From Woeseiaceae bacterium (lineage in GTDB: Bacteria > Pseudomonadota > Gammaproteobacteria > Steroidobacterales > Woeseiaceae), in NCBI GenBank assembly GCA_021773115.1, contig JAJFKS010000025.1, forward strand, positions 248,001-312,000: a stretch of 64,000 nt of DNA. Direction: 5' to 3'. A program made the translations under genes and the position numbers. The notes under the pieces were generated by a model. The model worked only from the letters and a program-made list of their open reading frames with translations, did no database searches and was not told the DNA's origin. Positions 37,847-54,975 of this stretch are shown one piece after another. Within the stretch, counting starts at the first letter, position 1. Each line of letters starts with the position of its first letter.

Positions 37847-38633
37847 TCGCCCGGGAGTCATCGTGCCAGCGCTTACGCTGGCAGTTTTTACGATCATATC
37901 GTTACTCACCCCGGCTTTCGCACAGAGCGTGTCGAACACGACGGCAAAAAAAACGCACACGTCATCTATCGATTCGACGAGCACGCCGTTGTCGGAAAGC
38001 GAACGGCAACGCTCTGCTGCCTGGAGCCTAACCGATACCGAGTGGCGTCGTTATCAAAGCCTGCTGCTTGGCATTCGCGGCAGTATCAGCCCCGCCAATC
38101 TGTCGCCCATTGAAGTGCTGGGAATTCACGCCCGAGACGATGCTGAGCGGCAACGTTTTGCCGAACGTTGGGCACGCGCGATGCGCGACGACGCCGAGCG
38201 CATCCTGGCCTTTCAACAGGCCTACGATACAGCTGCGAAACGGCTGTTCTCGGGGCAAACCCTTATCGATGTCGGCAAGCTCCATACCTTGCCGCAGAAG
38301 ACCAGCGAGCTGCAGCCGGACGATCGCATTTTGTTTTTCACAGGTGTGAAATGTCCGGCTTGTGACGCCATGTTGGTAAAACTCCTCAGTCGTATGGAGT
38401 CGGTTGCCGGCATCGATATCTACATTGATGACGTGCCAGGAAATGACGACGACGACATTCGCGCCTGGGCGGAAGATCACGGCATTGAACGCGCATGGGT
38501 AGGATCACGGCGCGTGACACTGAATCATGACGGTGGGGCGCTTGAGAAGATAACAAACGATTCGCCTGAAAGACCGGCGCTCTATGTCCGTCGCAACGGT
38601 CAACTATCCGCTTTGTCGTATGCCGAGCTTTGA
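37827..38633 (+). CDS. ICE protein, PFL_4693 family
   Basis: A 268-residue exported protein (signal peptide with VPALTLAVFTIISLLTPAFA) of the TIGR03759/PFL_4693 family. Marker segments: AWSLTDTEWRRYQSLLLGIRG, LSPIEVLGIHARDDAERQRFAERWA, and a thioredoxin-like C-terminal half with FTGVKCPACDAML (CxxC) and ERPALYVRRNGQL. The CxxC suggests a periplasmic disulfide or assembly role in the mating apparatus. Start is ATG 37827 or GTG 37821; neither is decided by a ribosome-binding site. The stop overlaps the next start (TGATG). Confidence 0.85.
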   Translation: MTIPTSNRPGVIVPALTLAVFTIISLLTPAFAQSVSNTTAKKTHTSSIDSTSTPLSESERQRSAAWSLTDTEWRRYQSLLLGIRGSISPANLSPIEVLGIHARDDAERQRFAERWARAMRDDAERILAFQQAYDTAAKRLFSGQTLIDVGKLHTLPQKTSELQPDDRILFFTGVKCPACDAMLVKLLSRMESVAGIDIYIDDVPGNDDDDIRAWAEDHGIERAWVGSRRVTLNHDGGALEKITNDSPERPALYVRRNGQLSALSYAEL

Positions 38634-39178
38634 TGTCTCGCTTCTTTGTGAAAGCATGCTCAGTTGTATTGCTGTGGCTCGCAGCCTCTCCCAGCAGCCA
38701 AGCAGAGGAATTACTTCCGCCGGTCTATCGTTGGATCGCCGCCGACAAGGAGATTCCGGCAAGGCTTTTCTATGCCGTCTCGCTCGCTGAGAGTGGCAAG
38801 ACCATTTCAGCAACCAGCGGCCGTCGCCCCTGGCCGTGGACTCTCAACATCGCCGGCGAAGGCGTGTACTTCAACAGTCGCTGGGAAGCCTGGCGGGCAC
38901 TGGATGAGTCTCTGCGCGCCGGTGAGACTTCAGTGGATATCGGCCTGATGCAAGTGAACTGGCACTATCATCAGGCACGCCTGGGCAGTACCTGGCTGGC
39001 GCTGGAGCCAACACATAATCTCAGCGTCGGCGCCGACATTCTTAAAGATTGCTACCGAAAACGCCGCGACTGGTGGGCCAGCGTCGGTTGCTACCACGCA
39101 CCGGGAGATCAGGCGCGTGCACGACGATACCGTGCCCGGGTGATGGCGCTATGGCATGAACTGCCGGGGATGGATTGA
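38633..39178 (+). CDS. Lytic transglycosylase of the conjugation apparatus
   Basis: A 181-residue exported SLT-type murein transglycosylase. Signal peptide 1-25 (VVLLWLAASPSSQAE); catalytic Glu in YAVSLAESGK, WPWTLNIAGEGVYF, VDIGLMQVNWHYH and NLSVGADILKDCY are the standard boxes. It opens peptidoglycan for the mating channel. The position between PFL_4693- and PFL_4695-type genes is conserved in this ICE class. Start ATG 38633 overlaps the preceding stop, and its own stop overlaps the following ATG, indicating tight translational coupling. Confidence 0.9.
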   Translation: MSRFFVKACSVVLLWLAASPSSQAEELLPPVYRWIAADKEIPARLFYAVSLAESGKTISATSGRRPWPWTLNIAGEGVYFNSRWEAWRALDESLRAGETSVDIGLMQVNWHYHQARLGSTWLALEPTHNLSVGADILKDCYRKRRDWWASVGCYHAPGDQARARRYRARVMALWHELPGMD

Positions 39179-39714
39179 TGCCAATACTCTGCATCCGAAA
39201 ACGACGGATTATGGGTATTTTCGTATGTTGCCTGCTTGCCACTACCTCAGTGGCACTCGCCGAGCTGACCGTCGTTTTTGACAACGGTCAGGCAAGGCCA
39301 TTATCGGATTTCTTCGGTCCACTGGATTCGGGCAAACCCGATACCGTTCCGCCGTACACTGAAAAGCACCGACTGGGCGCCGCCGATGTTGAGTCGTTGT
39401 TACCGATTCGCTCGCCGGGACTCACGCCGGGAAAAGTTACGGCAAGAGAACACAGCGTGCCGTTTGCTCGTTCCTTCTTTCTGATCGGATCGGATGCGAT
39501 CTCAAAACGTTGGCTCACAGAAAACCGAGAAGCACTGAAGCGGATGGGTGCCATGGGCCTGCTGGTTGAAGCAGGCAGTATTGAGGATCTAGACGCCATT
39601 GCGAATCTGGCAGATGGCTTACCAATCACACCGGCATCCGGGTCCGACATTGCCAAAGCACTGGGTATTCGTCACTACCCGGTGGGCATATCCGCAGGTC
39701 GTATTTGGCAGTGA
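39178..39714 (+). CDS. ICE protein, PFL_4695 family
   Basis: A 178-residue exported protein of the TIGR03765/PFL_4695 family. A hydrophobic leader (MGIFVCCLLATTSVALA) precedes LTVVFDNGQARPLSDFFGPL, VESLLPIRSPGLTPGKV, SFFLIGSDAISKRWLTENREAL, and the end HYPVGISAGRIWQ; all are characteristic. It is always encoded just before traD. Role in conjugation undefined. It overlaps the traD start by four bases (GTGA). Confidence 0.88.
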   Translation: MPILCIRKRRIMGIFVCCLLATTSVALAELTVVFDNGQARPLSDFFGPLDSGKPDTVPPYTEKHRLGAADVESLLPIRSPGLTPGKVTAREHSVPFARSFFLIGSDAISKRWLTENREALKRMGAMGLLVEAGSIEDLDAIANLADGLPITPASGSDIAKALGIRHYPVGISAGRIWQ

Positions 39715-41825
39715 GCCGCTACGCCATCGATGCGTTGTTGCGCCCGCCAGTGGAGCTGTGGTCGGTGTTAGTCACATTGCTTGCAGCTCTAATAGCGGCA
39801 ACAGCGCCGTGGGCGCTAATGCTACCGGACGGGGTCGGCTACGCTGTCTGTGCGTGCCTGATCGTGTTCGCGGCGTTTCGCGCCCGGCAGGCATGGCACG
39901 TTATCCGCTATCAACGACGACTCAAGAGAATGCCGAGTTACCGCCTGTATCTTGATCGCGTGCCGCTGAGCCGGCACAAACTGTTTCTGGGTCGCGGCTT
40001 TTTGTGGACGCAACAACACACGCAACGCTTGCGCGATACGCTGCGTCCGGAAGTGCAACACTACGTGCAGCCGCATTGGTTGTATCGCTGGGCGCGCCGC
40101 ATGGAACTGCGATGGGAGTCGGCACGGTGTTTGTCCAGCCTGGCCAAGCTGTTACGCAGCCGCCGTTGGTGGAATCCACTGGCGCCCATACCACTACTGG
40201 GCGGCAACCCGGCGCTGCATGCGGTCGGTATCCATGAGCAGGATGTATGGATGGACCTTGATGAGCGGGTGGGTCATACGCTGGTGCTCGGCACCACCCG
40301 CGTTGGCAAAACACGATTAGCAGAACTCTTGATCGCCCAGGATATTCGGCGCGGCGATGTGGTGATCGTGTTCGACCCGAAAGGCGATGCCGGTCTCTTG
40401 AAGCGCGTGTACGCAGAAGCCAAACGAAACGGGCGCGAAAAGGATTTTGCCCTGTTTCACCTGGGCTATCCGGAGGCATCGGTACGCTACAACGCGATCG
40501 GTAATTTCTCCCGCATCACGGAAGTCGCAACGAGAATTGCCAATCAATTGCCCCGCGAGGGCAACTCGGCGGCCTTTAAAGAGTTCGCTTGGCGTTTCGT
40601 TAATATCATTGCCAGAGCGTTAGTCGCGCTGGGCCAGCGACCCGACTACGAGCGTGTCCGGCGTTACATTAACGACATGGAACCGCTGTTTATTCAATAC
40701 GCAAAGGCCATATTGAATCAGCAAGGAAAAGCGGGCTGGCAGGAGGAAGTGGTCAAGCTGGCCGCGAGCGCCACAGGACGTCATGTGCCACACGCTCTTC
40801 GCGGTCGCCAAGCCGAAGCGATCGCCCTTACTTTGTATCTGCAGGGCAGCGATATCTATGAGCCGGTGCTTGATGGATTGATGTCGGCGTTCAAGTACGA
40901 CCGAACCTATTTTGACAAGATCGTAAGCTCTGTAGGTCCGTTGTTGGAAAAGCTCACCACCGGAAAGATTGCGAAATTGCTGTCCCCGGACGTGGAGGAC
41001 CAGGAGGATGAGCGAGCAGTATTGGAATGGCTGCAAGTCATCCGGAACAAGGGCATCGTCTATGTGGGCCTCGATGCACTCAGCGATACCACCGTGGCGA
41101 GCGCCGTTGGGAACTCGATGTTCGCTGATTTGGTTTCCGTGGCCGGCCACATTTACAAACACGGCGTACCGGGGACTGAAGGCGGTGTACCCACCATCTC
41201 CTTACACGCCGATGAGTTTAATGAGCTCATCGGCGACGAATTCGTGCCGTTATTGAACAAGGCCGGTGGTGCAGGGTTTCAGGTGACAGCCTATACACAG
41301 ACCTGGTCGGATGTGGAGGCGCGCCTCGGCAATAGTGCCAAAGCCGGGCAGGTGGCCGGCAATTTCAACACGCTAATCATGCTGCGTGTGAAGGAATTGG
41401 CGACGGCACGCATGCTCACCGATCAATTACCGAATGTCGATGTTTTGACCCTAATGAGCGTCTCCGGCGTAGATGACTCATCAGACCCAGGTTCGGGCGT
41501 TGATTTCAAATCACGCAACGAAGATCGAATCAGTGTTTCGGAGGTCAGCCTGCTCGGCGTGTCCGAACTGGTAACACTGCCCAAAGGCCAGGCTTTTGCG
41601 ATGCTCTCGGGTGGTCAGCTGTGGAAACTCCGCATGCCGCTGGCCGATAGCATCGACGACGCAGTGTTGCCGCAGGCGTTTCGCGATCTCACGACGGAAA
41701 TGGAGCGAAGCTACATCACCAACGATTATTGGTATCGACAGCGCGAGACCTGGTGGCTGGAGACGGGGCAGGGCATGGCGAATAAAGGGGATGCCAATGG
41801 CGAGGCCGCCGCCACGCAATCATGA
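39711..41825 (+). CDS. traD: Type IV coupling protein TraD, PFGI-1/SXT class
   Basis: A 704-residue inner-membrane ATPase that couples the relaxosome to the mating channel. Two N-terminal membrane helices (LWSVLVTLLAALIAATAPWAL; YAVCACLIVFAAF), Walker A GTTRVGKT starting at residue 194, Walker B region VIVFDPKGDAG, and the distal ISLHADEFNELIG and AYTQTWSDVEARLG motifs of TraG/TraD ATPases. Length and the WNPLAPIPLLGG segment fit the SXT/PFGI class. The GTG at 39711 overlaps the preceding stop; the next gene starts inside its 3' end. Confidence 0.93.
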   Translation: MSRYAIDALLRPPVELWSVLVTLLAALIAATAPWALMLPDGVGYAVCACLIVFAAFRARQAWHVIRYQRRLKRMPSYRLYLDRVPLSRHKLFLGRGFLWTQQHTQRLRDTLRPEVQHYVQPHWLYRWARRMELRWESARCLSSLAKLLRSRRWWNPLAPIPLLGGNPALHAVGIHEQDVWMDLDERVGHTLVLGTTRVGKTRLAELLIAQDIRRGDVVIVFDPKGDAGLLKRVYAEAKRNGREKDFALFHLGYPEASVRYNAIGNFSRITEVATRIANQLPREGNSAAFKEFAWRFVNIIARALVALGQRPDYERVRRYINDMEPLFIQYAKAILNQQGKAGWQEEVVKLAASATGRHVPHALRGRQAEAIALTLYLQGSDIYEPVLDGLMSAFKYDRTYFDKIVSSVGPLLEKLTTGKIAKLLSPDVEDQEDERAVLEWLQVIRNKGIVYVGLDALSDTTVASAVGNSMFADLVSVAGHIYKHGVPGTEGGVPTISLHADEFNELIGDEFVPLLNKAGGAGFQVTAYTQTWSDVEARLGNSAKAGQVAGNFNTLIMLRVKELATARMLTDQLPNVDVLTLMSVSGVDDSSDPGSGVDFKSRNEDRISVSEVSLLGVSELVTLPKGQAFAMLSGGQLWKLRMPLADSIDDAVLPQAFRDLTTEMERSYITNDYWYRQRETWWLETGQGMANKGDANGEAAATQS

Positions 41826-42540
41826 TGCAGCGGCACATCCCGCGCGTAGAGGTTTTATTGCGGCACTATTCGGTCGTATCGGCTCAGCAATTCGTTGGCT
41901 GCTGTTGTCGTTGCTGGTTTCCATCGTGGTCGAAGGTCTCGGCATGGTGTTCTGGTGGCCCGAGCAGGGGCTTAATCACAGCCGCCAGATGCTGGCACAG
42001 GAAATCGAGTATCTGGATCAGGACTTTCGGCAAAGTGTATTAACTTCAGATCCCGGCCGCTTCGCCAGAAAAATCGCCGAGCGATCGCATTATTTCTTGT
42101 TTGAACTGACGGGTGTACTGCGCTTATCCGCATGGCTGTCACGACCATCCGCCGATGGAGAGACAGGCGTTCGCCCTAAATTGCATAAAGCGTACGCGCC
42201 AATCGAGCGATTCGTCACAGCGGCGATTCAGATTGTGCAGGTGTTTTCCGTGCGTCTGGCCATCTTGTGTTTGGCAACACCGGTGTTTCTATTGTTCAGT
42301 CTGATCGGCCTGGTGGATGGGCTGGTGCAACGGGACTTACGCCGCTGGGGCGGCGGGCGCGAAAGCTCATACCTGTACCACTACGCCAAGAACAGCGTTT
42401 GGATGTTCATGCTGAGTGCCTGGATCTTCTATCTGGCACTGCCGTTCAGCCTGCATCCGGCGTTTATCGTGCTGCCGTTCGCGATCCTGTTTGCAACCAG
42501 CATCAGTATTACGGCCAGCACCTTTAAGAAGTACCTTTAG
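41797..42540 (+). CDS. ICE membrane protein, PFL_4697 family
   Basis: A 247-residue inner-membrane protein of the TIGR03747/PFL_4697 family. Membrane segments are near the N-terminus (WLLLSLLVSIVVEGLGMVFWW), in the middle (LAILCLATPVFLLFSLIGLVDG) and at the end (MFMLSAWIFYLALPF, FIVLPFAILFATSISITA); VQRDLRRWGGGRESSYLYHYAKN is the conserved cytoplasmic loop. It always follows traD. Start ATG 41797 was preferred over 41791 for spacing to AAAGGGG. The mating operon is interrupted right after it by cargo. Confidence 0.88.
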   Translation: MARPPPRNHDAAAHPARRGFIAALFGRIGSAIRWLLLSLLVSIVVEGLGMVFWWPEQGLNHSRQMLAQEIEYLDQDFRQSVLTSDPGRFARKIAERSHYFLFELTGVLRLSAWLSRPSADGETGVRPKLHKAYAPIERFVTAAIQIVQVFSVRLAILCLATPVFLLFSLIGLVDGLVQRDLRRWGGGRESSYLYHYAKNSVWMFMLSAWIFYLALPFSLHPAFIVLPFAILFATSISITASTFKKYL

Positions 42541-42767
42541 GCGGTGCTGTGATTGGCTGGAGTTCAGTTGGGCCGTTGTTTCTTGGATTGGTTTCGCCAT
42601 CTTGCCCGCCGCCGTGAAAATTGTATGACCGCTATTGATGCCAACTTAGGGCACGACCTTACCCTCCTTGAAAAATGTCGGCAGTTTCTTTGCCAGAGGG
42701 CCATTTCTGCACTTTTTGGCCAAATTTGTTCACTGCACGGTATGAGCCATGTGCTTAGGCTGTATGG

Positions 42768-42929
42768 ATGCTCTTATCAATCTACATCGAAGCGCTGCTG
42801 GTGAACGAGGAATGGGCCGATCAAATCTGGGAGGCATGGAATGCAGGAGAACTGTGCGACCTGGTGGCGGCCAGCGCCTGGCTAGCTATGATCGTCGGTA
42901 CGCCACTATCAACATCCCCGCCTCAATAG
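42768..42929 (+). CDS. Small ICE protein (53 residues)
   Basis: A short frame with convincing protein character: IYIEALLVNEEWADQIWEAW, AGELCDLVAASAWLA and a short hydrophobic end. Its acidic, tryptophan-rich helix pattern recalls small proteins encoded in the same place, between PFL_4697 and RAQPRD genes, in related elements; this is from memory and unverified. No strong ribosome-binding site. If real, it marks the last ICE gene before the cargo insertion. Confidence 0.45.
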   Translation: MLLSIYIEALLVNEEWADQIWEAWNAGELCDLVAASAWLAMIVGTPLSTSPPQ

Positions 42930-43385
42930 TAAAAGTTTGGATGTTGCAGCGAACAGTCGAATCTGCGACCCATTGCAGCCTTTCGCCCGGAGAGAAGATT
43001 CGGCCAATACTTGCCGCTCAAGACCACCTGGTTCTATTCCAAAAGTAACCGCTTGCACGGAACGTCTGCTCAAGAGCGGCCGCTCAAAAAACGATTTTCG
43101 GAATTCTCGACTGGCTGCTTTCGGCCGAGGCTGTGTGAAAACGCAAAATTGACAGCCTAAGATCGTTTCCAGGCTTCGCTGATTTTTGGTTCACCGGCAT
43201 CATATCGAGACTAATAATTTAACCGAAAACGGCCTTGAGCGTACCGCTTAACCAATACAGAAGTGGTATCGAGAATATGCACAAGATTTCCCGATTTCGA
43301 TTTCCCTAGAATATGGTTACGCAAAAATTCTTGACGGTAATGAATACTACAGCCAAGGGGACTTCGCGGTCATTAGCATGTCCGG
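42930..43385. other. Left edge of cargo: repeats, no gene
   Basis: Holds a family-B unit (43001-43085) very similar to 11751-11835, the phrase GACTGGCTGCTTTCGGCC of the spacer family, and the left 18-bp inverted end of the cargo transposon (43124-43141). Nothing coding is visible between 43142 and 43385. Confidence 0.5.
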
Positions 43386-44045
43386 CTACTTTATTCGTGG
43401 GGCGTCAGTTGGCGTTGTCCTCAGCTCTCGGAAAGAAAAACAAAGTGTATATCTAGTACCCGACAGAACTTGGCTTACTGCATGATAGGAGGTCGGGGAT
43501 ATCTCGAAACCGATTCCAGCACAGTGCTCCGGATTATAGTATCGATGACGATTGGTTACTTCTGTCGGAAACTCCTCGTCGAACAGCATAAGCAGACCAC
43601 CACATTCAATCGTCCACCCCCTGTTGATTTGAATCAATAGTCGATGAGACTGGCCGTACTCTCCATAGTCTGTGTGCAATTTTATCTTCTGGCCTGTGAC
43701 CATTTTTTGAGCGGTAACATCCACCCAACTGTCCAATCCGCAATTGAAAGCCGATCCGAAGTAGGACCGCAGCCATTCATGAAATCTCATTTCAGTAAGA
43801 AAGCTCAATGAAGCAGGTAGGTCAAAGTGGCGCAGATCCAAATCGTACGTCTCGTAGAAGTCATTTATAGAGCGAAACCCCCATTTCGCGTCTTTCTCGA
43901 GCCAATCTAGCAGACGCCTTCCCTCGGCAGAAGGCAGAAAACCGGGCACCACAAAATGCGGATATGGGCACTGGCTGAGCGGTGGCTTTTCTGTGCCAAC
44001 TTGCCACCACTCCGCATCGTATTTCGCGGTCTTAGTATCTGCCAC
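43386..44045 (-). CDS. 2-oxoglutarate/Fe(II)-dependent oxygenase (prolyl-4-hydroxylase-like)
   Basis: A 219-residue oxygenase of the double-stranded beta-helix fold. Iron ligands and 2-oxoglutarate anchor are visible as HTD (His124, Asp126 in KLHTDYGEYG), His188 in SYHAVSQV and Arg198 in SGTRYTLCFSFR. PYPHFVVPGFLP at the N-terminus is typical of prolyl-4-hydroxylase-type oxygenases in peptide pathways. GTG 44045 is chosen since GGGA lies 7 bp upstream; a longer frame from 44090 would overlap the preceding gene by 43 bp. As last gene of the operon it likely hydroxylates the modified peptide. Confidence 0.8.
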   Translation of the reverse strand: MADTKTAKYDAEWWQVGTEKPPLSQCPYPHFVVPGFLPSAEGRRLLDWLEKDAKWGFRSINDFYETYDLDLRHFDLPASLSFLTEMRFHEWLRSYFGSAFNCGLDSWVDVTAQKMVTGQKIKLHTDYGEYGQSHRLLIQINRGWTIECGGLLMLFDEEFPTEVTNRHRYYNPEHCAGIGFEISPTSYHAVSQVLSGTRYTLCFSFRELRTTPTDAPRIK

Positions 44046-44047
44046 TA

Positions 44048-45328
44048 TTAAGTCCCGATTTGCACCTTTTGTGCGTTGGTAGTTGCCCACAATTGTCTGT
44101 GCCCCAAAACCTCCGGAGGCACCTTGCTTTCTATTACTTTAAATACCCGTCCGAAACTTGAATTGCGAGCTTCTAAATTTCGCAATAATTTCTGTCCTTG
44201 CTGAGTTAATTCACCTCGGGGTACTTGTGAGAACCCGACGACCAATCGATGGTATAGGATCGGTGCTCGTTTTCTAATGTAGTCACGCTCGCACTCCAAA
44301 ATATCAACCGCCGCACAATGCACATAAAAACGGGCCACTGCCGTAAAAACATATAGCGCATGCATCAGACCAATCAAGGGCCTTGGATCATCTCTCCATG
44401 GAGAGTAGTAACGCTGATCATTTTCATGAACGATGACTTCCGTGTCTAGATATCGATTCAGACAGTCGTGCGACTGTTCGTGAATAATCGCTTCAGCCAT
44501 GCGCATTCGATCGATAGCATCAGAGAGGAAAACTACACCCTTGAGCTGTGGCGACGTAAATGACCGGTGCGTTTTCGGATCATCGGTTCGAATTCTTACG
44601 TACCACTTAATGTCGTTGCGTATGTGCTTCGCCATTTGTCTATCTGCTTCATTGATCAGATCGAGCGCGTCAATGATCGCCACCTCGAATTTCTCTACTT
44701 CTCGGCTAGAGCTCTCACAGATGTCGACGTAGTATGCGTCCTCGAAAAGAATGGGGTTTGCGGCCCCAACTATTCTAAGCTCGCCGTGTTGTTCATGATT
44801 AATTTTCGACAATCGACGATCTGGAGAGTCGCCGGACAACACTTGAGCGAAGTTTGTATCTGTATTTTTTATGACTAGAGAGTTCTCGACATTTCGAATT
44901 GTGTACTCACCAATATCAAGACAGACGAAATGTCCCAGGTTAGGGAAAGGCACTTTCAACTTGCGGTTTAAGTGAATCGAGAACTCATATCCAGATGGCA
45001 GCTGCAATACAAAAGAGTCGATAAACAGCGCTGCTAAAACTACTGCCTCTTCATTGGCAAGCAACCCTTTAGAATCCGACCCCCACTCTTTTTGAATTAA
45101 ATCTGCATGACATCCAAACATTCTAAAGACGTTCAGCCAAAAAAACGGTGTTGCTCGCTCGGCGACGTCGGATGCAAGCGCATTATGCGCAAGGAGTGCT
45201 TTCAGGCGACTGACTGCAATTGAATCGTCTTCTCCGAGGCAAAGGACCAACCTACGAAAGAGCAAAGCATGATAAATGCGCGATGTATCGCGATAATCTG
45301 ACGACAAGATTGCGTTCTCATCATGCAT
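44048..45328 (-). CDS. HExxH-motif peptide modification protein
   Basis: A 426-residue protein with a zinc-metalloprotease-like HExxH motif at His283-Glu-Gln-Ser-His287 (AEAIIHEQSHDCLNRYL), followed by the acidic segment EVIVHENDQRYYSPWRDDPRPLIGL, in which WRDDPRP is, to my memory, characteristic of the mod_HExxH family (TIGR04267) that accompanies FxsB-type radical SAM maturases. The N-terminal 200 residues resemble the N-terminal scaffold of that family. Members are proposed to modify or cleave a ribosomal peptide. It overlaps the radical SAM gene by 8 bp, so the two are translationally coupled. Confidence 0.8.
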   Translation of the reverse strand: MHDENAILSSDYRDTSRIYHALLFRRLVLCLGEDDSIAVSRLKALLAHNALASDVAERATPFFWLNVFRMFGCHADLIQKEWGSDSKGLLANEEAVVLAALFIDSFVLQLPSGYEFSIHLNRKLKVPFPNLGHFVCLDIGEYTIRNVENSLVIKNTDTNFAQVLSGDSPDRRLSKINHEQHGELRIVGAANPILFEDAYYVDICESSSREVEKFEVAIIDALDLINEADRQMAKHIRNDIKWYVRIRTDDPKTHRSFTSPQLKGVVFLSDAIDRMRMAEAIIHEQSHDCLNRYLDTEVIVHENDQRYYSPWRDDPRPLIGLMHALYVFTAVARFYVHCAAVDILECERDYIRKRAPILYHRLVVGFSQVPRGELTQQGQKLLRNLEARNSSFGRVFKVIESKVPPEVLGHRQLWATTNAQKVQIGT

Positions 45329-46481
45329 TCGCGTACATCGGCAATTGCCGATCGAGAGTATTTAAAACGGATTTGTGCACATGAGATATGAGCAACTGCA
45401 TGTCGGCGCAGTATATTGTCGGATTCAAGAACCCATTCTCTTTCGAGTATCGATTCGGCAAGTATCCTGCGCCACAGATATTTACTATGGAACATTGTTT
45501 GCATGTTTCGCACAGGGATTCGGCACCAACCTGCCTGCTGCGGACTGCCAAACATGCCGCTACCTCATCAAAGCTATTCCTAGAAACGTCGTACCCAAGG
45601 TAGGCGGCCCCGTCATAGGTTCCTTTTAACGAATCCACCGCCTCTATCGACCCGTCCGTTTCTACAACTATCAAGTCGACGACTCCGAGACCTATCGATT
45701 CAACCAATGGCGATCCGCCAAAAAGTTGCCTAATAATACTGTCGAATTCGCGAATCCGAAGTTGCGGCATATTGAGGAACCAATAGTCAAAAGCTCGAAT
45801 TAGCCATTTCGCATAAACCGTACTGTCTATGCTGTCTGTTTTTCCGGGAGGGGGCCTATCGTAGGTATCGTAGGGCAGTAAGAAGTCAATTTTCGGTGGG
45901 CCGAATTTTGCCAAGTACTCGATTATTGGAATCGGATCGCAATTGACATTCACAACGCTCAGGAAACCGCTTATTACACTCTTATACGGCGAATTTAGGA
46001 TCTCAAAGAGGCGCTGCTCTAGTAGTTTACCTGTGGGCCGACCTCTTCGGTCGACTCGAGCAACGTCATTTACCTCAGGAGGCCCATCAATGCTTATTCC
46101 AATACTGACGTCATTCTCGCTCAAATACTTTGCGATTTCGAGCGTCAATAGTAAGCCATTGGATTGCATTCCAAATTTGATCTCGATACCAGAACTCTCG
46201 AATACGTCCTTTATCGCTCCCAACACTACGTCCAAATGACGAACCCCTCCCAGCAGTGGTTCGCCTCCGTGAAATACTATGGTTGCGTAAGGTTTATTGT
46301 TTGAAACGCAGTGCTCGCGGATGCGTTCGGCTGTCTTTCGTGCAGTCGCAGCACTCATCAGTGGAGGCTGCTTCCTCCAAGACTGATCTTCTAGGTTATA
46401 GACGAAGCAGTATGTGCAGTTCAAATTGCATCTGCTCGCCGTTTTTAGGATAAACGTGTGAAAAGGAACTTTCGTTGCCAC
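45321..46481 (-). CDS. Radical SAM/SPASM peptide maturase (FxsB-like)
   Basis: A 386-residue enzyme with the radical SAM cluster motif CNLNCTYC (Cys18, Cys22, Cys25), VFHGGEPLL as the SAM-contact motif, GISIDGPPEVND, and a C-terminal SPASM domain with CETCKQCSIVNICGAG and a final cysteine at IYCAD for auxiliary [4Fe-4S] clusters. Layout fits FxsB-like and other cyclophane-forming maturases, which join an aromatic side chain to a carbon of a nearby residue. The partner gene carrying HExxH and the small gene upstream support a peptide substrate. No separate RRE gene is visible. Confidence 0.88.
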   Translation of the reverse strand: MATKVPFHTFILKTASRCNLNCTYCFVYNLEDQSWRKQPPLMSAATARKTAERIREHCVSNNKPYATIVFHGGEPLLGGVRHLDVVLGAIKDVFESSGIEIKFGMQSNGLLLTLEIAKYLSENDVSIGISIDGPPEVNDVARVDRRGRPTGKLLEQRLFEILNSPYKSVISGFLSVVNVNCDPIPIIEYLAKFGPPKIDFLLPYDTYDRPPPGKTDSIDSTVYAKWLIRAFDYWFLNMPQLRIREFDSIIRQLFGGSPLVESIGLGVVDLIVVETDGSIEAVDSLKGTYDGAAYLGYDVSRNSFDEVAACLAVRSRQVGAESLCETCKQCSIVNICGAGYLPNRYSKENGFLNPTIYCADMQLLISHVHKSVLNTLDRQLPMYANA

Positions 46482-46575
46482 AGCAGAATTCCTTTTTTGT
46501 TTACTCAGCCGACCGCCTCCGCGAAAATCGCGGTTTCTTGAACATCGATATTGTGACGACTATTTGTGAGTGTCG

Positions 46576-46818
46576 CTATGCTTCGTGAGTATTGCTATGC
46601 GAGCCGTGATCTTTATGAAACTGTGGAAGTTGGTCTTTTCTAAGTACCGACTTCAAAGCTTCTTTGACCGCGTCATTTTCCATCTGATCCACATCGGATA
46701 GTTGTATACCTTCAAGTGAAATCTCGTGGATCTTATCGGATGACGCTTTTCTCTTATGATCTTCGGATTCTCGTCGCCCATGTTCCTCCGGGGCCTTTCT
46801 CAATCCTTTTGCAGTCAT
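46576..46818 (-). CDS. Putative RiPP precursor peptide
   Basis: An 80-residue protein placed just before the radical SAM gene. The N-terminal leader is highly charged (HGRRESEDHKRKASSDK) with a possible recognition helix at ISLEGIQLSDVDQMENDAVKEA; the C-terminal 17 residues, LPQFHKDHGSHSNTHEA, form a His-rich tail with one Phe and four His that looks like a core. ATG 46818 follows GGGAG at 7-bp spacing. No homolog is recognised. Small size, position and leader-core architecture are the evidence; the product is unknown. Confidence 0.7.
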   Translation of the reverse strand: MTAKGLRKAPEEHGRRESEDHKRKASSDKIHEISLEGIQLSDVDQMENDAVKEALKSVLRKDQLPQFHKDHGSHSNTHEA

Positions 46819-46890
46819 TTTCTCGCTCCCAATTTGGATAGGTTTTCCCACATACAGTTTAGACAAACACTTGTCCGAGTTCCAGTCGCA

Positions 46891-47829
46891 TCAACACCCG
46901 GTGAGCACATATTGGCCAGATTGGTGTGAGACAAGGCCGCCATCTGCGAGAATACCGCGATCCAGCAGATCAACAATAATATTCTGAAGCCTTCTCCGAG
47001 GCACTTCGTGCGTTATCGCGAATGCGCTATTGTCGATGCATAGGATGCCGGTCTCGCCCAAACATCTTGACGCACGCTGCAACATTTCGCTGATTTCTTT
47101 AGAACTAGTAATAGTCTGCCCAAGCACACCATTGATAACCAGACAATCTATATCCGCACAATAAGCGTTGTCCAGCATCATGTCGCCAGTCTCTAGGGCG
47201 GCCAATCGCCTCCATACTGGTTTCAGCTTACAAACTTCATTCGTCACCTCCTCGAAATATATCTGCCGTGTGTCATGCAACTCGCTCGGAATCGACAATG
47301 CCTTCACCCACTGCATTTCATGAAAGTTCGGCTTTACAATGTCTCTACCAACGATGGCGATATCGACATCGCGACACAACGCATCTAAAAAAACAGCCAG
47401 CGAATATGCATCCTCGCCATTCCATGTCGCTTGAACTTCAATTCGAGTTTGCCTGCGTTTTCGACTTTGAACGAATCGCTCTATAAAGCGAAGTTGAGAA
47501 TGATATTTGAACCACCCTGCGGCCCCCGCCCAGATTCCGAAATGTCGTAAAACAGGTAAGAATTTTGATGAGGGTTCAATATGATCAGATTCGACAATCA
47601 GCGATTGAAAAAACTCACTTGGCGCCGCCGTCCCTGCGATCTTCTCGAGCTCCACAGAAGTTATCGATGGCCATACATCCGTGTCCTGATTTACGAACGG
47701 AGACATCCGCAATCCATTGAAGACCGCGCAGCGTGGCATTGGAAGATCGCATATTGTTAGTAGGCTTCGGAAGTAGATCTCAATCAGCTCATGATCATCC
47801 CAGCCAAGGCCTGAATTGAATTGGTCCAT
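46891..47829 (-). CDS. CheR-like SAM-dependent methyltransferase-fold protein
   Basis: A 312-residue protein, first gene of the minus-strand operon. The segment TRIEVQATWNGEDAYSLAVF, followed by VDIAIVGRDIVKPNF, matches the SAM-binding region of CheR methyltransferases (GCSTGEEPYSLA...ATDI), although the glycine loop is altered. IDCLVINGVLGQTI and GETGILCIDNSAF fit the later strands. Chemoreceptors are not encoded nearby, so a peptide carboxyl or side-chain methylation is more likely. ATG 47829 has AAGGAG at 6-bp spacing; the ATG five codons upstream is weaker. Confidence 0.6.
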   Translation of the reverse strand: MDQFNSGLGWDDHELIEIYFRSLLTICDLPMPRCAVFNGLRMSPFVNQDTDVWPSITSVELEKIAGTAAPSEFFQSLIVESDHIEPSSKFLPVLRHFGIWAGAAGWFKYHSQLRFIERFVQSRKRRQTRIEVQATWNGEDAYSLAVFLDALCRDVDIAIVGRDIVKPNFHEMQWVKALSIPSELHDTRQIYFEEVTNEVCKLKPVWRRLAALETGDMMLDNAYCADIDCLVINGVLGQTITSSKEISEMLQRASRCLGETGILCIDNSAFAITHEVPRRRLQNIIVDLLDRGILADGGLVSHQSGQYVLTGC

Positions 47830-47892
47830 TAGAACTCCTTGCATGACAAGACCTTTCCGTCTGTCATAACTCGATGATACTTAATCACATGC

Positions 47893-47940
47893 CGAACCTA
47901 GGAAATTGTCTCTTTGCTATTTTTCCCTAAGTTAGGTTCG
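47893..47940. promoter_or_regulatory. Inverted repeat upstream of the peptide-modification operon
   Basis: CGAACCTA (47893-47900) and TAGGTTCG (47933-47940), exact complements 32 bp apart, lie about 65-110 bp before the first gene of the minus-strand operon. It could be an operator or a leader hairpin; no clear sigma-70 promoter could be fixed. Confidence 0.35.
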
Positions 47941-48460
47941 TGATTGCCCACATTACCGTAGTTGCTCGGGTCTCGCCTAGCGCGCGGAGTTTCAATTTGT
48001 TGGTGGGCGCCTCTGACGGTACTGACAAACTAATTTCCCTGCTCGAGTGATCTACTGTTAGGACGTTGTCCGTTTGGCTGCGGGACAGTTCCAGGACGCG
48101 AACGTGTGCTGTCAAAATAGTTGATCGTGTTTGGCGGACAGCCGGTGTGGCCCCTAACCGACGGTCGCTTCTTTGCAGAAACCTGCCAAGTGATTGAGGT
48201 GTGGAGCAGGATTGGGGCGATCAAGCCACCTCGAGCGGGCCGGTAAGTTCTCATCTGCGATTGCAGAACCTGTTGGGTACGGCAATACAACTGGGATGTG
48301 CGCCAAGGCTCTTTGAGTTATTGGGTTGGAGCATTCATAGCAGAGTGTCTTCATTTCTGCATCGCCTTCTATCGATTGTGCGGCGATGATAGCGTCAGCC
48401 AGTGTGATCTTGACCATCAGCGAGAAAAACTGCAGTCGACGTGTACGACCAGTAACGCCA
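47941..48460. other. Gene-poor stretch
   Basis: No gene that I can defend. A minus-strand frame (48576-48154) is open for 140 codons but shows no start signal or family feature. This probably represents decayed transposon body. Confidence 0.3.
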
Positions 48461-48728
48461 AGCGACTCAAGCGCTGGGAAAAAGAACCGCACTGGATGCG
48501 GCTGAGGCGCTGCTGAAAAAGAATCCCGATGCCATGCGACAGCGAAAACGCCTGGTCGAGCATCCCTACGGCACAATCAAACACTGGATGGGATCGACGC
48601 ACTTTTTAATGAAACGACTACCGAACGTGCAAGCCGAGATGAGTCTGCATGTGCTCAGTTACAACCTCAGGCGCGCGATCAACATTCTCGGCGTGCCGAA
48701 GATCCTGCAACAGCTGCAGGCGGCCTGA
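48442..48728 (+). pseudogene. IS1182-type transposase, C-terminal remnant with frameshift
   Basis: Residues KRWEKE in one frame (48462-48485) continue in another frame as ALLKKNPDAMRQR, VEHPYGTIKHWMGSTHFLMK and EMSLHVLSYNLRRAINILG up to the stop at 48728. The VEHPFGTIK-WMG-HFLMK...EMSLHVLAYNLKR pattern is the C-terminus of IS1182-family DDE transposases. The N-terminal three quarters, including two catalytic acids, are missing, so it is inactive. The right terminal repeat lies 166 bp downstream. Confidence 0.75.
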
Positions 48729-49089
48729 ATGACTCTCTCTTTGACGGTCGCCGAATCAGATCGTGCTGAGGCGACGATCTATTTATCCGAAATCCCGCTT
48801 GAGAATATAAGTGCCGCAACGGTGACCTCACTTGGCGACAGAAAAAACCGTGTGGTTTTTCAGGCAACACCGATTTGAGAATTAATACAGCTCTTTTCAC
48901 ACAGCCTCGGCGGAAAGCCGCCCGTCGAAATTTCCTGCGGAAAAGCAGCCGCTCAGATTGAATGCGAAGAAAGGGTCAGAACTTGCCGCCAACGGACGTC
49001 AGAACAAAATAGGAAAGTGAGATCTACGGAGGTGTCGCAACCTCAACATTGTCGTAAAGTAGTTGGGCCTTCATCGAAACAGAATCAAT
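48729..49089. other. Gene-poor stretch with transposon right end and spacer fragments
   Basis: Contains the right 18-bp inverted end (48894-48911), then GGAAAGCCGCCCGTCGAAAT, GCAGCCGCTCAGATTGAATG and GCGAAGAAAGGGTCAGAACT, words that recur in the left accessory region. No gene. Confidence 0.5.
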
Positions 49090-49413
49090 ATGCGTCTTTC
49101 GACAATAACATGGTTGCTTATCGTGGCCGGCGTCCTTTCCGGATGTACCAGGGCGAATCCCTTGATCGGCACTTGGAAACTAAAACCAGGGCAGAGCAAT
49201 GCTCAATTCATGCCTTGTACTGAGCTTAGATTCGAGAAACGACTGGAAACGTGCGGCGGCCTCGCCGAAAAGGTGACGTACGACGTTCGAGAAGGTGAAG
49301 TCATTGTGCACGGCGAGTCGGGATTATCTGCCGTTTATAAAGTGATCGACAAAAATACAATTTCTATTGAAATGCCCGGTATGGGCTCCGTTGTTTTTGG
49401 CAAATACTTGTAG
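49090..49413 (+). CDS. Small lipoprotein of unknown function
   Basis: A 107-residue predicted lipoprotein: hydrophobic leader TWLLIVAGVLSGC with lipobox cysteine near residue 19. The mature part begins NPLIGTWKLKPG, a start seen in lipocalin-like DUF proteins, and is rich in short strands (LRFEKRLE, KVTYDVREGEVIVHGESG, AVYKVIDKNTISIEM). Two cysteines (PCTEL, TCGG) may form a disulfide. A small beta-barrel sensor or inhibitor is plausible. ATG 49090 starts the signal sequence; the upstream ATG at 49063 does not. Confidence 0.62.
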   Translation: MRLSTITWLLIVAGVLSGCTRANPLIGTWKLKPGQSNAQFMPCTELRFEKRLETCGGLAEKVTYDVREGEVIVHGESGLSAVYKVIDKNTISIEMPGMGSVVFGKYL

Positions 49414-49493
49414 GTGGCAAATACTGACCCCGATTAATCTCCCACCAGGTGAGAATAAGGGTCAGGACGTTCCGCTGATAGTTCCCAGGTTGA

Positions 49494-49700
49494 ATGGGCA
49501 AGATCGGCCAATACTTTTCAGTTGAGAGCATCTGGTTGGCAACCAAAAACCTGGGTTTGACTCGCGACTATCGGGCACTAAGGACCTTGGCTTTTGATAC
49601 GGACAATGAGAGGAGAGACTTTACGTCTCATGAGGCCGCCATCACGGCCTCGTCATTTGGTTTGTTTGTGATGTGGTACATGTACAAGCGATGGGCCTAG
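49494..49700 (+). CDS. Doubtful small protein
   Basis: A 68-residue frame with a hydrophobic end (FGLFVMWYMYKRWA). Its 5' end lies in repeat-like sequence (GATCGGCCAATACTTTTCAG, related to family B) and it has no ribosome-binding site. It may be a remnant or not coding at all. Confidence 0.22.
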   Translation: MGKIGQYFSVESIWLATKNLGLTRDYRALRTLAFDTDNERRDFTSHEAAITASSFGLFVMWYMYKRWA

Positions 49701-49740
49701 ATGCTCCAATGCAGGTCACCAGGTTCATTTGGAGTATGAA

Positions 49741-50541
49741 ATGAAGAAGCTCGCAACTTTCCTAAGCATTTTTGTTGTCACGGGTTGCGCCAGTCTCGGG
49801 CATGTTCAGTTTTACGATCAAGTTTCGCCAACGAAGTACTCCCCGACAAGTGGCGTTATGGTTTTCGAATATAGCAACGTTTCAGTTGACGAGATCTACG
49901 ATCTACTCTATTCAGACTATCTCATTGTTGGAAAATCGGGGTTCAATGGGCCTTACGAAGACCCGAAGCGCGTGTCATCCTATGCAAAATCTATTGGCGC
50001 GGATGTATTCATATCTGCCGCGCAGTTCGATGAGACGCGAACATCGTTCATGAATTTATCAACGCCTACGACGTCGACAACATACGTAAGTGGAACGACA
50101 AATGGCGGGAGCTTTTCAGGTACCGCCACGACATACGGAACAACCACCACAACGGTTCCAATAGCTGTAAATCGATACGATCAGTATGGGATCTATTTAA
50201 AGAATGTAAACAATATTCAATCCGTTTGGGAAAAGACCCGGGATCAATATGAAGTTACAGAGCGACACGCGAACTCCGGGTCATGGGGTAATGAAAATTA
50301 CCGGATAGACGTCGTTCAATCCGGGGAGCAGCTAGTGGGCTTCATTTCTGAAGTTCTCAAGGGTGACAAGTCCTGGTCCGAGGGCCAACTCAAAATGTTC
50401 TTCGGCACCAATATTGGCGTAGGCATCTACATGATGGGGAGTAAAGCGCCAATACCGGCGGAGTTCGCGGTTAACAAGTTTGGGCATTTGGAAGTTACGC
50501 TACTGACCGACAATCAACAGTTTTCGTTCGCGCGGCTTTAG
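49741..50541 (+). CDS. Lipoprotein of unknown function
   Basis: A 266-residue predicted lipoprotein (LSIFVVTGC, cysteine near residue 16). After VFEYSNVSVDEIYDLLYSDYLIVGKSGF the chain has a YAKSIGADVFISAAQF strand-helix unit, then a Thr/Ser/Gly-rich stretch (TTSTTYVSGTTNGG... about residues 110-140) that probably is a flexible surface loop, and a mixed alpha-beta C-terminal domain. Related lipoproteins with such loops occur as singletons in many gammaproteobacteria. ATG 49741 was preferred (GGAG upstream) over the in-frame GTG-like start at 49729. Confidence 0.65.
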   Translation: MKKLATFLSIFVVTGCASLGHVQFYDQVSPTKYSPTSGVMVFEYSNVSVDEIYDLLYSDYLIVGKSGFNGPYEDPKRVSSYAKSIGADVFISAAQFDETRTSFMNLSTPTTSTTYVSGTTNGGSFSGTATTYGTTTTTVPIAVNRYDQYGIYLKNVNNIQSVWEKTRDQYEVTERHANSGSWGNENYRIDVVQSGEQLVGFISEVLKGDKSWSEGQLKMFFGTNIGVGIYMMGSKAPIPAEFAVNKFGHLEVTLLTDNQQFSFARL

Positions 50542-50690
50542 GTCTAGTTGGCCGAATGCTATCCCAAAGATTTCTCCAAAGCGGACATGTAAACAGCAGG
50601 GTTTTTTTGAAAAAAAGCAGAATTCCAACGTCGGTGCGAAGAATGGGTCAGAACTCGCCATTGCCTGCTAGAATCCTAGCGCATGAGTAG

Positions 50691-51761
<1,071 letters not shown>

Positions 51762-52182
51762 CGTCCGTACCAGGTTACTGATCTAAGTGATCGACAGCGG
51801 CAAGTTCTGACCCGCAGTTCGCGCTGGTCAGCGGTCAATCGGGGTCAGAAGTTCCCTCCTGACAGACGGCTGCTTATGGTGACGACTACCGTTCGGTCGC
51901 GATCAATTCCGACCCCGTGTGTACTGTCAAGTCGGAGCCAGTACAGCCAACCATTGTGTAGCCATTGTCTGCTGAGCAGTAGCGCAAACCAAGCGTAGCG
52001 TCCGTCGCGTATCAACCCGAATTGAAACGGTAACCCCCGATACCACGGTGGCTGTTTTATGACGAAATGGTCGTGTTCGATCGAAGTCGTTAACCTCGGC
52101 ACTCACCTGCGCGGTTTACAGGTAGCCGCGCACACAAACCTCACCCATCATCATTCGCATCAATACCGATGGGACAAGATCC
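51762..52182. other. Right edge of cargo, no gene
   Basis: Contains the phrases GGCAAGTTCTGACCC and GGGGTCAGAAGTTCC in inverted order (51798-51856), like junction words elsewhere in the accessory DNA. From about 52040 it probably belongs to the ICE again (leader of the RAQPRD gene). Confidence 0.4.
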
Positions 52183-52479
52183 ATGCGTACGATCATTCTT
52201 CTTCACACCCTTCTTCTTGGGTTGGCGAGCCCGCTTGTCCACGCAGATGCGGACGCTGAACGCGAGTCACTGGCTCGCATTGTTCACGAACTCGAAGTAC
52301 TGCAGCCTTTGCTCGTGGAGGCCGAAGCCGCCGCTGACCCGGATGCGCGTATCCGATTTCGATACGACTGGCTGAGAAAAGATCTTGAGCGTATCCGCCG
52401 CGGTATTCAGGAACATATTGATGCGCCCCGAGGCGAGCCGCGGTCGCTCGCACCACTGCGCGGCGACTACCGCCAATAG
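52183..52479 (+). CDS. RAQPRD-family ICE protein
   Basis: A 98-residue exported protein (signal peptide to LVHADA) of the RAQPRD family (TIGR01690). The helical middle (ESLARIVHELEVLQPLLVEAE), RFRYDWLRKDLERIRRGIQEHID and APRGEPRSLAPLRGDYR are diagnostic; the RAQPRD signature itself is degenerate here. It resumes the conjugation operon after the cargo insertion. Its role in the mating channel is unknown. Confidence 0.85.
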   Translation: MRTIILLHTLLLGLASPLVHADADAERESLARIVHELEVLQPLLVEAEAAADPDARIRFRYDWLRKDLERIRRGIQEHIDAPRGEPRSLAPLRGDYRQ

Positions 52480-52495
52480 AAAAGCGATTCAGACG

Positions 52496-52726
52496 GTGAA
52501 TCCCAACCAGCAAATCATGTTTCAGGCCGCATCGGGCGTCAGTGCCACGGTATTGCTGCTTGGCATCGCGTCAATCATTTTATTGCTGGCTTTTATCTGG
52601 GCCATTTGGGTGACGCTCGGCACCTTCCGTGCCTGGCAAGACGGCAATGCGAGCCTCTTCGACGTCGCCTGGGGCGCGATACGCGCCAGCATCATTTTGA
52701 TGGTATTGGGTTTCTATTTGCGTTGA
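52496..52726 (+). CDS. ICE membrane protein, PFL_4701 family (DUF3262)
   Basis: A 76-residue inner-membrane protein with two hydrophobic helices (VSATVLLLGIASIILLLAFIWAIW and ASIILMVLGFYLR) around the loop FRAWQDGNASLFDVAW. This matches TIGR03758/PFL_4701. Such small proteins belong to the inner-membrane part of the GI-type mating apparatus. GTG 52496 is the start that gives family length; the open frame extends farther upstream inside the RAQPRD gene. Confidence 0.82.
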   Translation: MNPNQQIMFQAASGVSATVLLLGIASIILLLAFIWAIWVTLGTFRAWQDGNASLFDVAWGAIRASIILMVLGFYLR

Positions 52727-52804
52727 GCGAATTGTATTTCCAATTCGGGTCTATCCCGAAAAATTTTCGATGCGGGTCAGCTCGCACAGCCTGGAGTAAC
52801 AACG

Positions 52805-53146
52805 ATGTTCATACACAGAAAACAATTACTGCTGACGCTAGCAGGATTAAGCGGCCTGCAAGACGCGAAAGCGGCCTTGCCAACACCGGTCGCACCCAGT
52901 ACGGCACCGGCGGCCGGTGACTGGATTGGCTTGATACAGGGCTACATCAAAGACGGTGGACTGGTATTGGGTCTCGCCATCGCGGTGCTGGGGTTCTTGT
53001 GGATTGCTTACCTTGCCTTCGCGAAGTTCAACGAGGCACGCCAGGGCAAAGCGGAGTGGGCCGAAGTCGGTGTGCTGGGTATTGTGGGGGCCATTGTTCT
53101 GATCTTCGCGAGTTATCTGCTGACCGAAGCGGCCGGCGTCATTTAG
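52805..53146 (+). CDS. ICE membrane protein, PFL_4702 family
   Basis: A 113-residue protein with a signal-like N-terminus (KQLLLTLAGLSGLQDAKAALP), one helix GGLVLGLAIAVLGFLWIAYL and a second VGVLGIVGAIVLIFASYLL around the polar loop FNEARQGKAEWAE. This is the TIGR03745/PFL_4702 layout, comparable to a pilin or VirB2/TraA-like subunit; that comparison is inference. It sits at its standard place in the operon. Confidence 0.86.
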   Translation: MFIHRKQLLLTLAGLSGLQDAKAALPTPVAPSTAPAAGDWIGLIQGYIKDGGLVLGLAIAVLGFLWIAYLAFAKFNEARQGKAEWAEVGVLGIVGAIVLIFASYLLTEAAGVI

Positions 53147-53152
53147 CAATTG

Positions 53153-53515
53153 ATGTCGAACTCCAACAACATTCTTGCCGACCGACTCAATGTCGAGCCG
53201 GCGATATTCAAAGGATGCTCGTCCTCAGAGCTCGGCGTGATTGTCACCTTGTCGGTCATCGTGTGGTTGCCACTCAGCGTGTTGTTGGCCTGGCTGCTGG
53301 GTGCCCCGAGTATGGGGCTCGGACTGGCCGGAATAGCCATCGTAGTCACGGTCGTCGTAACAGCGAGCGTATTTCAACGTATCAAGCGTGGTCGCCCGGA
53401 TGGTTATTACCAGCAGCGATTCATGATGGGGCTCGCAAGACTGGGGCTGCGACGGTCACCTTTTATTTGCCGTGACGGCAGCTGGGCCATTGGCCGCAGC
53501 CAACCGTGGCTCTAG
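53153..53515 (+). CDS. ICE membrane protein, TIGR03750 family (DUF3487)
   Basis: A 120-residue protein: an N-terminal cytoplasmic segment LADRLNVEPAIFKGCSSSELG, two adjacent helices (LSVIVWLPLSVLLAWLLG; GLAGIAIVVTVVVTASVF) and a basic end GYYQQRFMMGLARLGL. The pattern matches the DUF3487/TIGR03750 family, comparable to TraL/VirB3. ATG 53153 is used. The next gene starts 7 bp downstream. Confidence 0.84.
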   Translation: MSNSNNILADRLNVEPAIFKGCSSSELGVIVTLSVIVWLPLSVLLAWLLGAPSMGLGLAGIAIVVTVVVTASVFQRIKRGRPDGYYQQRFMMGLARLGLRRSPFICRDGSWAIGRSQPWL

Positions 53516-53522
53516 GCACGTC

Positions 53523-54155
53523 ATGCAACGATACCGATACGAAATTGACAATGTTCGCAGCCACCTGCGCTCGTTGTGGGCCGTGATTGCTTTGCAACTG
53601 GTGTTCATTGTGGCGTTGTGGATCGGCTGGATGCGCATGCCAGGCACTATCACGGTGCACATACCGCCCGATCTCCGCTCCGGCAGTGTGATGGCACTCG
53701 GTGAGGTGCCACCGGCGAATGTGTATGCGTTCGCCTTCTACATCTTTCAGCAACTCAATCGCTGGCCGGAGGATGGCGCAGAAGACTACGGCAAAGCGAT
53801 CTTTCACATTGCGCCGTATCTGACACCGGAGTTTCGCCGTCAATTGATTGCAGACATGGAAGCCAAAGGCAAACAGGGCGAGCTGGCGCATCGCATCCGC
53901 AGTCTGCAGGCGATTGTTGACAGTGGCTATGAAGAACGCCGGGTTGATGTCCTGAGTCAAGACGTGTGGGTGGTGTGGCTCGATCTTGAGCTTAATGAAT
54001 CCGTCAAAGGCATGACCATTAAGCATACCCGTATCCGTTACCCAATCCGGGTGGTTCGCTACGCGGTCGATGCCGAGGCCAACCCCTGGGGTCTGGCGTT
54101 GGACGGCTTTGCCGGCGAGGGCCCCAAAAAGCTTGATCTGGGATCGACGAACTAA
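53523..54155 (+). CDS. ICE protein, PFL_4703 family (DUF2895)
   Basis: A 210-residue inner-membrane protein with one N-terminal helix (LWAVIALQLVFIVALWIGW) and a periplasmic domain. IDNVRSHLRSLWAV, TVHIPPDLRSG, VYAFAFYIFQQLNRWPEDG, APYLTPEFR and DVWVVWLDLELNESVKG mark TIGR03746/PFL_4703, counterpart of TraE/VirB5-8-like proteins. ATG 53523 was chosen because the transmembrane segment follows at the usual distance. Confidence 0.86.
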   Translation: MQRYRYEIDNVRSHLRSLWAVIALQLVFIVALWIGWMRMPGTITVHIPPDLRSGSVMALGEVPPANVYAFAFYIFQQLNRWPEDGAEDYGKAIFHIAPYLTPEFRRQLIADMEAKGKQGELAHRIRSLQAIVDSGYEERRVDVLSQDVWVVWLDLELNESVKGMTIKHTRIRYPIRVVRYAVDAEANPWGLALDGFAGEGPKKLDLGSTN

Positions 54156-54192
54156 GCGGTCGTTCCACCGTAGCCACATGTAAGGAGTCACT

Positions 54193-54972
54193 GTGTTGAA
54201 ATTAAAACTGTATCGCCTCGTTTCATACAGCTTCATCGCGTTATTGTTCGCGGTGACGGCAAATGCCGAGTCATTACCGCCCGAGCGTGTTCAGTGGCAA
54301 AAAGCACCGATTGCAGTCGCCTTGAGTGTCGGCAAAGAGCGTATGGTGCATTTTCCTCGTCCCGTAAGTGTTGGCATCCCGGCCACGCTTCAATCGCTAC
54401 TGCGCACACAAACCGTCAACGGCACGGTGTACTGGATGGCCAATGCGGCATTCGGCCGCACGCGAGTGATGGTGCGCGAGATCGACGGGGGACAGACGTA
54501 TCTCGTTGACCTTAGCGCGGACACGCAAGTAAAGCCCTCAGCGGCAATGGTCGTGTTTGTCGATGAGACAAGCGAGTCAGAAAATCCAAGCGGAGCGGTG
54601 AGCGAGGGCGCTCGGCACGGCTACGTCAGCCTGACACGGTACGCGTCGCAACAACTGTACGCACCGCCGCGCCTCTTGTCCGCAGTGCCCGGCATTGTGC
54701 GTGTACCGGTTCAGCAACAAAACGTGCCACTGGTTCGGGGCAATCGTATTATCGCCCATCCGTTGGTGGCCTGGCGTGCCGGGCACTTGTACGTCACTGC
54801 CGTGAAACTGACGAACCGTACCTCAACAGCACAGACGCTCGACCCACGAACGCTTCGAGGGGCCTGGCTGAGTGCGACGTTTCAGCACGCACGCTTGTTA
54901 CCCGCGGGCAGTGATGCGGATACCACGGCGGTTTACCTCGTCTCGGCACAGCCCTTTGCAGCGTCGTTGTAG
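54193..54972 (+). CDS. ICE protein, PFL_4704 family (DUF3438, TraK-like)
   Basis: A 259-residue exported protein with a signal peptide (SFIALLFAVTANAE). The mature part has ERVQWQKAPIAVALSVGKERMVHFP, NGTVYWMANAAFGRTRVMVRE, QLYAPPRLLSAVPGI and RGAWLSATFQHARLLP, matching TIGR03749/PFL_4704. It corresponds to TraK/VirB9, the outer ring of the channel core; the correspondence is from family knowledge. GTG start with GGAG upstream. Confidence 0.88.
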   Translation: MLKLKLYRLVSYSFIALLFAVTANAESLPPERVQWQKAPIAVALSVGKERMVHFPRPVSVGIPATLQSLLRTQTVNGTVYWMANAAFGRTRVMVREIDGGQTYLVDLSADTQVKPSAAMVVFVDETSESENPSGAVSEGARHGYVSLTRYASQQLYAPPRLLSAVPGIVRVPVQQQNVPLVRGNRIIAHPLVAWRAGHLYVTAVKLTNRTSTAQTLDPRTLRGAWLSATFQHARLLPAGSDADTTAVYLVSAQPFAASL

Positions 54973-54975
54973 ATC

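Follow-up and report, generated by a model that had tools for sequence, protein, structure and literature searches.

Gene content of the locus

The window (the whole 64,000-nucleotide stretch of Woeseiaceae DNA that was analysed) carries five neighbouring genes on the minus strand, for which the order CheR-like gene, precursor gene, maturase gene, HExxH gene and YhhC-type gene was observed directly (Table 1). The last three overlap, with 8 nt shared between the HExxH gene and the stop end of the maturase gene and a further overlap between the HExxH and YhhC-type genes. A scan of the five genes revealed neither a transporter nor a protease.

Table 1. Features of the cluster, in window coordinates
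Feature	Position	Strand	Basis
YhhC-type 2OG-Fe(II) oxygenase, 234 aa, GTG start	43386..44090	-	NF041706, 188.5 bits (cut-off 150)
aKG-HExxH peptide beta-hydroxylase, 426 aa	44048..45328	-	TIGR04267, 98 bits (cut-off 40)
FxsB-family cyclophane-forming radical SAM/SPASM maturase, 386 aa, GTG start	45321..46481	-	TIGR04269, 398.4 bits (cut-off 370)
Short perfect hairpin CCGCGAnnnTCGCGG, 6 bp, between precursor and maturase	46519..46533	-	weak
Putative RiPP precursor peptide, 80 aa	46576..46818	-	ORF reading; profile rank 1/871
Putative core, codons for last 17 residues LPQFHKDHGSHSNTHEA	46579..46629	-	register inferred from relatives
Shine-Dalgarno-like GGGAG of precursor	46826..46830	-	7 nt before ATG
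CheR-like methyltransferase candidate, 317 aa	46891..47844	-	PF01739, E 1.7e-4, 21.6 bits (below cut-off 27)

Family membership of the maturase and of both oxygenases was likewise observed directly. AAGGA lies just before the maturase start codon (GTG, 46481), and in the alignment the protein keeps CxxxCxxC and three C-terminal Cys; its nearest solved structure is ChlB (9gm3, E 4e-82), and it scored 364.2 bits against the YhhB model NF041707, under the cut-off of 445. For the HExxH protein the nearest solved structure is ChlH (8s5f, E 3e-11), with HEQSH at residues 283–287 and SPW conserved. In the YhhC-type protein, the HxD pair His139 and Asp141, the distal His203 and Arg213 are invariant among the four sequences aligned. 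All three enzymes thus retain their catalytic residues.

The CheR-like gene ends 72 nt before the precursor gene, and its product is a candidate member of the cluster. Searches gave no convincing relative of it: its own genome only among 274 genomes of the class, its own genome and two matches (E 0.005 and 0.007) among 147 genomes of the order, and nothing in seven genomes of relatives, the plasmids, the viral contigs or the best 80 maturase loci (of at least 458 maturase relatives). A search against the PDB gave nothing significant, and a structure model predicted with no alignment reached pLDDT 35 and was of no use. The stretch between precursor and maturase was considered as an attenuator and rejected, as the whole intergenic stretch folded no better than shuffled sequences (z 0.42); the hairpin within it scored as terminator-like on the plus strand only.

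The precursor peptide

The precursor ORF opens with ATG at 46818 and closes with a stop codon at 46576–46578; re-reading of the sequence bore out the earlier description of one Phe and four His in the final 17 residues (LPQFHKDHGSHSNTHEA). An alternative TTG start is possible, which would give 96 aa with the tail unchanged. At least four His in the last 17 residues were found in one of the 563 window ORFs of 40 aa or more, the precursor ORF itself, and in 37 of 9,916 ORFs (30–160 aa) from loci of relatives; such a tail is uncommon, yet could be obtained by chance alone, and conservation is better evidence for a precursor than rarity of the tail. The peptide matched no NCBIfam family model at E values up to 10, including the YhhA model NF041705 (control peptide at L021, 60.9; cut-off 36), and it has no FxSxx C-terminus, the tail ending in HSNTHEA.

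A profile was built from four relatives with the window peptide left out. Against 871 window ORFs the window peptide ranked first (E 5.3e-6; next ORF 0.3), and with the leader-only profile it gave E 0.0022 (next 2.5). Against 9,916 ORFs from the loci, the full profile gave 6e-5 for the window peptide (best unrelated ORF 5e-4) and the leader-only profile 0.025, with one apparently unrelated ORF scoring better (0.0004); when the peptide of the Spirirestis locus L080 was left out in turn, the values were 3e-4 for the full profile and 0.43 for the leader only. Pairwise tblastn of the peptide found no relative in loci outside its own genome. On these results the link to the relatives is modest for the leader by itself and good once leader, tail and position are combined.

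A reading in which the small ORF is not a substrate, and the enzymes act on another peptide or on a housekeeping protein, would draw on the fact that an 80-aa ORF can occur by chance and that no family model matches this one. Where the ORF lies, its ribosome-binding site, its match to the profile and the pattern of its tail oppose that reading, as does the distance in the profile to every other window ORF, and we regard it as most improbable. Very probably the small ORF encodes the substrate of a cyclophane-forming radical SAM enzyme, as the sequence-only reading had proposed; the maturase, above the TIGR04269 cut-off, belongs to the FxsB family.

Relatives of the maturase

Genome contigs were scanned with an alignment of eight maturase sequences, and the best 80 of at least 458 confirmed relatives were kept. 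The closest among the matches listed was L080 from Spirirestis (376 residues aligned at 51% identity), followed by Microcoleus L081 (42%) and Trichodesmium L082 (39%). A relative of the HExxH protein was present in 43 of these 80 best loci and a relative of YhhC in none of them. At L175, from the same order as the window, YhhA, YhhB, YhhC and a HExxH-motif protein occur together.

In a tree of the window maturase and 34 chosen loci, the window paired with L080 (support 96/85), Paraburkholderia L026 came next and then L081 with L082, the five-member clade being supported at 94/92. Actinobacterial maturases with FxSxx tails formed a separate group (100/99); group labels in this tree were assigned from the tails, and how the labels cluster is therefore in part a matter of choice. 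A larger tree with 74 rows, from which an overly strict motif filter had left out 29 loci, agreed, with weaker support for the five-member clade (87/70).

The actinobacterial group bears on a reading with a single ring, placed at Phe in the manner of FxSxx peptides, and with unlinked His residues that might, for instance, bind a metal. Actinobacterial FxsB systems, with single FxS tails beside relatives of the window maturase, favour it. Their maturases, however, form their own clade, the window lies outside it with array-bearing loci and the window tail holds no FxS; a single ring thus seems very unlikely.

Plasmid-borne maturase loci L021, L022, L024 and L027 adjoin possible defence genes (Piwi, Fic, CD-NTase/ThiF, NACHT), and at L024, on a Ti plasmid, an IS21 element lies between the maturase and HExxH genes. 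Viral contigs gave 80 maturase loci, of which the best three (L186–L188) were examined, and none of these three held a relative of the HExxH protein. The viral locus L187 (946–1386) combines a maturase of 37% identity with a 146-aa peptide that has repeated Tyr/Phe motifs and a possible Tyr/Phe tail.

Peptide tails in related loci

The upstream position of the small ORF and the tail pattern in relatives were observed directly. In the nearest clade (the window and four loci), all five members have a small upstream ORF that can be aligned to the window peptide, and four of the five peptides end in arrays of His/Tyr/Phe-x-Ser/Asn/Lys tripeptides, keeping the triceptide arrangement in which an aromatic residue or His (i) is followed two positions on by a partner (i+2). 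The exception is L026, which has neither array nor HExxH gene in its 9.1 kb. The tails read YDS-HGS-S-HSK in L080, whose peptide continues for about 20 residues beyond the array, HES-HSS-HAE-FHQ in L081 and HTK-HTS-HSS-HSK-YSS in L082; HGS is common to the window and L080. The alignment of adjacent small ORFs and their C-termini, which had been proposed as a check, thus recovered a conserved upstream ORF with an aromatic/His tail, and since homologous loci keep both, the loss of this pattern that had been named as counting against the sequence-only reading did not occur.

Outside the clade, L086 (a Pyrinomonadaceae MAG, 6567–6973) carries a pair of adjoining array peptides, HTE-FDN-HTA-FTE-HTN and HTA-FQD-HSD, with no relative of the HExxH protein in the 15 kb of that locus. 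L143 shows HSS repeats in a His-Ser ORF about 950 bp upstream, with a 249-aa ORF between, and was retained as an array peptide with doubt. Cyanobacterial L171–L172 end in WRD-FSS-HNK, with variants in L169 and L173; some of these four loci have two small peptides in a row beside maturase and HExxH protein. Annotated YhhA cores read YDR-M-HHR-HNR, and tails of this type were also found in two cyanobacterial loci with fused maturase-HExxH genes (L161, L170). An unannotated YhhA peptide ending in YDRMHHRHNRS lies at 3772–3969 of L024.

The window tail and the YhhA cores have the same spacing (aromatic residue, His at +4, His at +7), which was reached by 2.4% of 200,000 tail shuffles in a test chosen after the tail had been seen. 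A count of tandem tripeptides was not significant alone for the window tail (P 0.07), nor was it for L080 (0.15), L026 (1.0), L021 and L060 (0.31 each); it was significant for L081, L082, both L086 peptides, L171 and L173 (P 0.03 to 0.0002).

Mobile setting and distribution

Conjugation genes lie on both sides of the cluster, all above cut-offs: TIGR03759, PFL_4695, TraD and TIGR03747 to the left, and RAQPRD, TIGR03745, TIGR03749 and TIGR03752 proteins to the right. Genes of an integrative conjugative element span 37821–56310 of the window, and G+C, about 57% in the element, drops to about 47% in the cargo at 43–48 kb. Because conjugation genes flank it and G+C falls, the RiPP cluster is carried as cargo by an integrative conjugative element. 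Relatives of the maturase (E 0.001) were found in none of the 15 other listed genomes of the genus and in 19 of 147 genomes of the order, its own included. The same element holds a second copy of D-Ala-D-Ala ligase (50727–51761), and another full-score copy lies on contig C35 of the genome; a use of the ligase for self-protection is mere speculation.

Proposed maturation and ring register

Three-residue cyclophanes described in the available text of PMC11002830 are those formed by XncB, by OscB, by MscB (Phe-Ser), by YxdB (Tyr-Asp), by HaaB and ScaB (His-Ala) and by YhhB (Tyr-Arg and His-Arg); the spacing logic of i to i+2 with which the tail was first interpreted fits these triceptides. In the available text of PMC12636437, a fused radical SAM/HExxH protein acts on Asp and His as a hydroxylase once the cyclophanes have formed, the ChlB/ChlH pair makes cyclophanes and beta-hydroxylates Asp and His, and other HExxH enzymes hydroxylate Gln and cleave the backbone.

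In the proposed course, the leader (about residues 28–60) would be bound by the neighbouring FxsB-family maturase, which would link each aromatic or His ring (position i) to the beta carbon two residues further on (i+2). Several three-residue rings could form in this way, and the layout assigned to the window core is FHK-D-HGS-HSN-T-HEA, with FHK-D-HGS-HSN as the favoured register (rings Phe-His-Lys, His-Gly-Ser and His-Ser-Asn) and His-Glu-Ala, less surely, as a further ring. Hydroxylation of beta carbons in the ring-bearing tail may follow, by the aKG-HExxH enzyme as well as by the YhhC-type oxygenase. As candidate sites we regard the central His of FHK and the Ser of HSN, because the middle residues of YDR and HHR are Asp and His, the types that a ChlH-type enzyme reportedly hydroxylates. 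We consider this whole course, leader-guided formation of several rings in the tail followed by beta-hydroxylation by both oxygenases, to be likely.

The main competitor for the register places contiguous rings at HKD-HGS-HSN and leaves Phe outside. The tails of L081, L082, L086 and the WRD-FSS-HNK loci are contiguous tripeptides of this kind, and other enzymes use Asp, Ser and Asn as ring partners in the available text of PMC11002830. Against this, L080 (YDS-HGS) and YhhA start with an aromatic residue that matches the window Phe, and the middle His of FHK resembles HHR, so that the all-His arrangement appears unlikely. With the favoured register starting at Phe, comparison with the relatives favours F-H-K and H-S-N among the spacings first suggested, with HGS in place of H-K-D. 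The further suggestion that a mostly His-based core would be unusual is partly right at most: His-Arg and His-Ala rings are published, the YhhA cores contain His and cyanobacterial relatives have longer His arrays, so that the core is ordinary for its clade, but it stands out when set against the published crosslinks. A fuller proposal, a triceptide with mostly or wholly His-based rings and Ser, Asn or Asp as partners (HGS, HSN, perhaps HKD), beta-hydroxylated by two unrelated oxygenases, perhaps O-methylated by the CheR-like protein, able as a rigid cluster of imidazoles to bind a metal ion, and spread by the element, is unlikely.

No report of His-Ser or His-Asn rings was found in the literature searched, which left subscription journals mostly outside, and a core with possible rings of these kinds, the presence of both kinds of hydroxylase, the CheR-like neighbour and carriage by an integrative conjugative element look like new features. 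Should these rings form, a single maturase would use both Phe and several His as donors, with Lys, Ser and Asn as partners, which would widen the known His-Arg and His-Ala chemistry. Clade tails with one to about five candidate sites make site choice by the enzyme directly testable, and rigid clustered imidazoles may, speculatively, be of interest as metal ligands.

Comparison with known systems

The closest solved relatives of the window maturase and HExxH enzyme are ChlB/ChlH (PDB 9gm3, 9gmc, 8s5f). ChlB/ChlH of Chlorogloeopsis are reportedly a fused radical SAM and aKG-HExxH protein (Nat. Chem. 2024 and JACS 2025, as cited in PMC12636437), whereas the window has separate genes; the two fused cyanobacterial loci L161 and L170 have YhhA-type tails and belong to another clade than the window. 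To YhhABC the window is linked by an oxygenase above the YhhC cut-off and by the spacing of aromatic residue, His and His, but its maturase scores under the YhhB cut-off, its precursor does not match YhhA and its ring partners would be Lys, Ser and Asn in place of Arg. With FxsA/FxsB of actinobacteria and MscB it shares a maturase above the FxsB cut-off; its tail is not FxSxx and offers several candidate sites rather than one. By motif description it resembles HaaB/ScaB in His as a putative ring donor, and the terminal HEA could be of the His-Ala kind, although other motifs dominate the tail. The likeness to HxsABCD (His-Xaa-Ser) is weak and below cut-off, consisting of HxS-like repeats in the L082 and L143 tails, while the window cluster has one radical SAM gene, which scored 59 bits against the HxsB model (cut-off 370).
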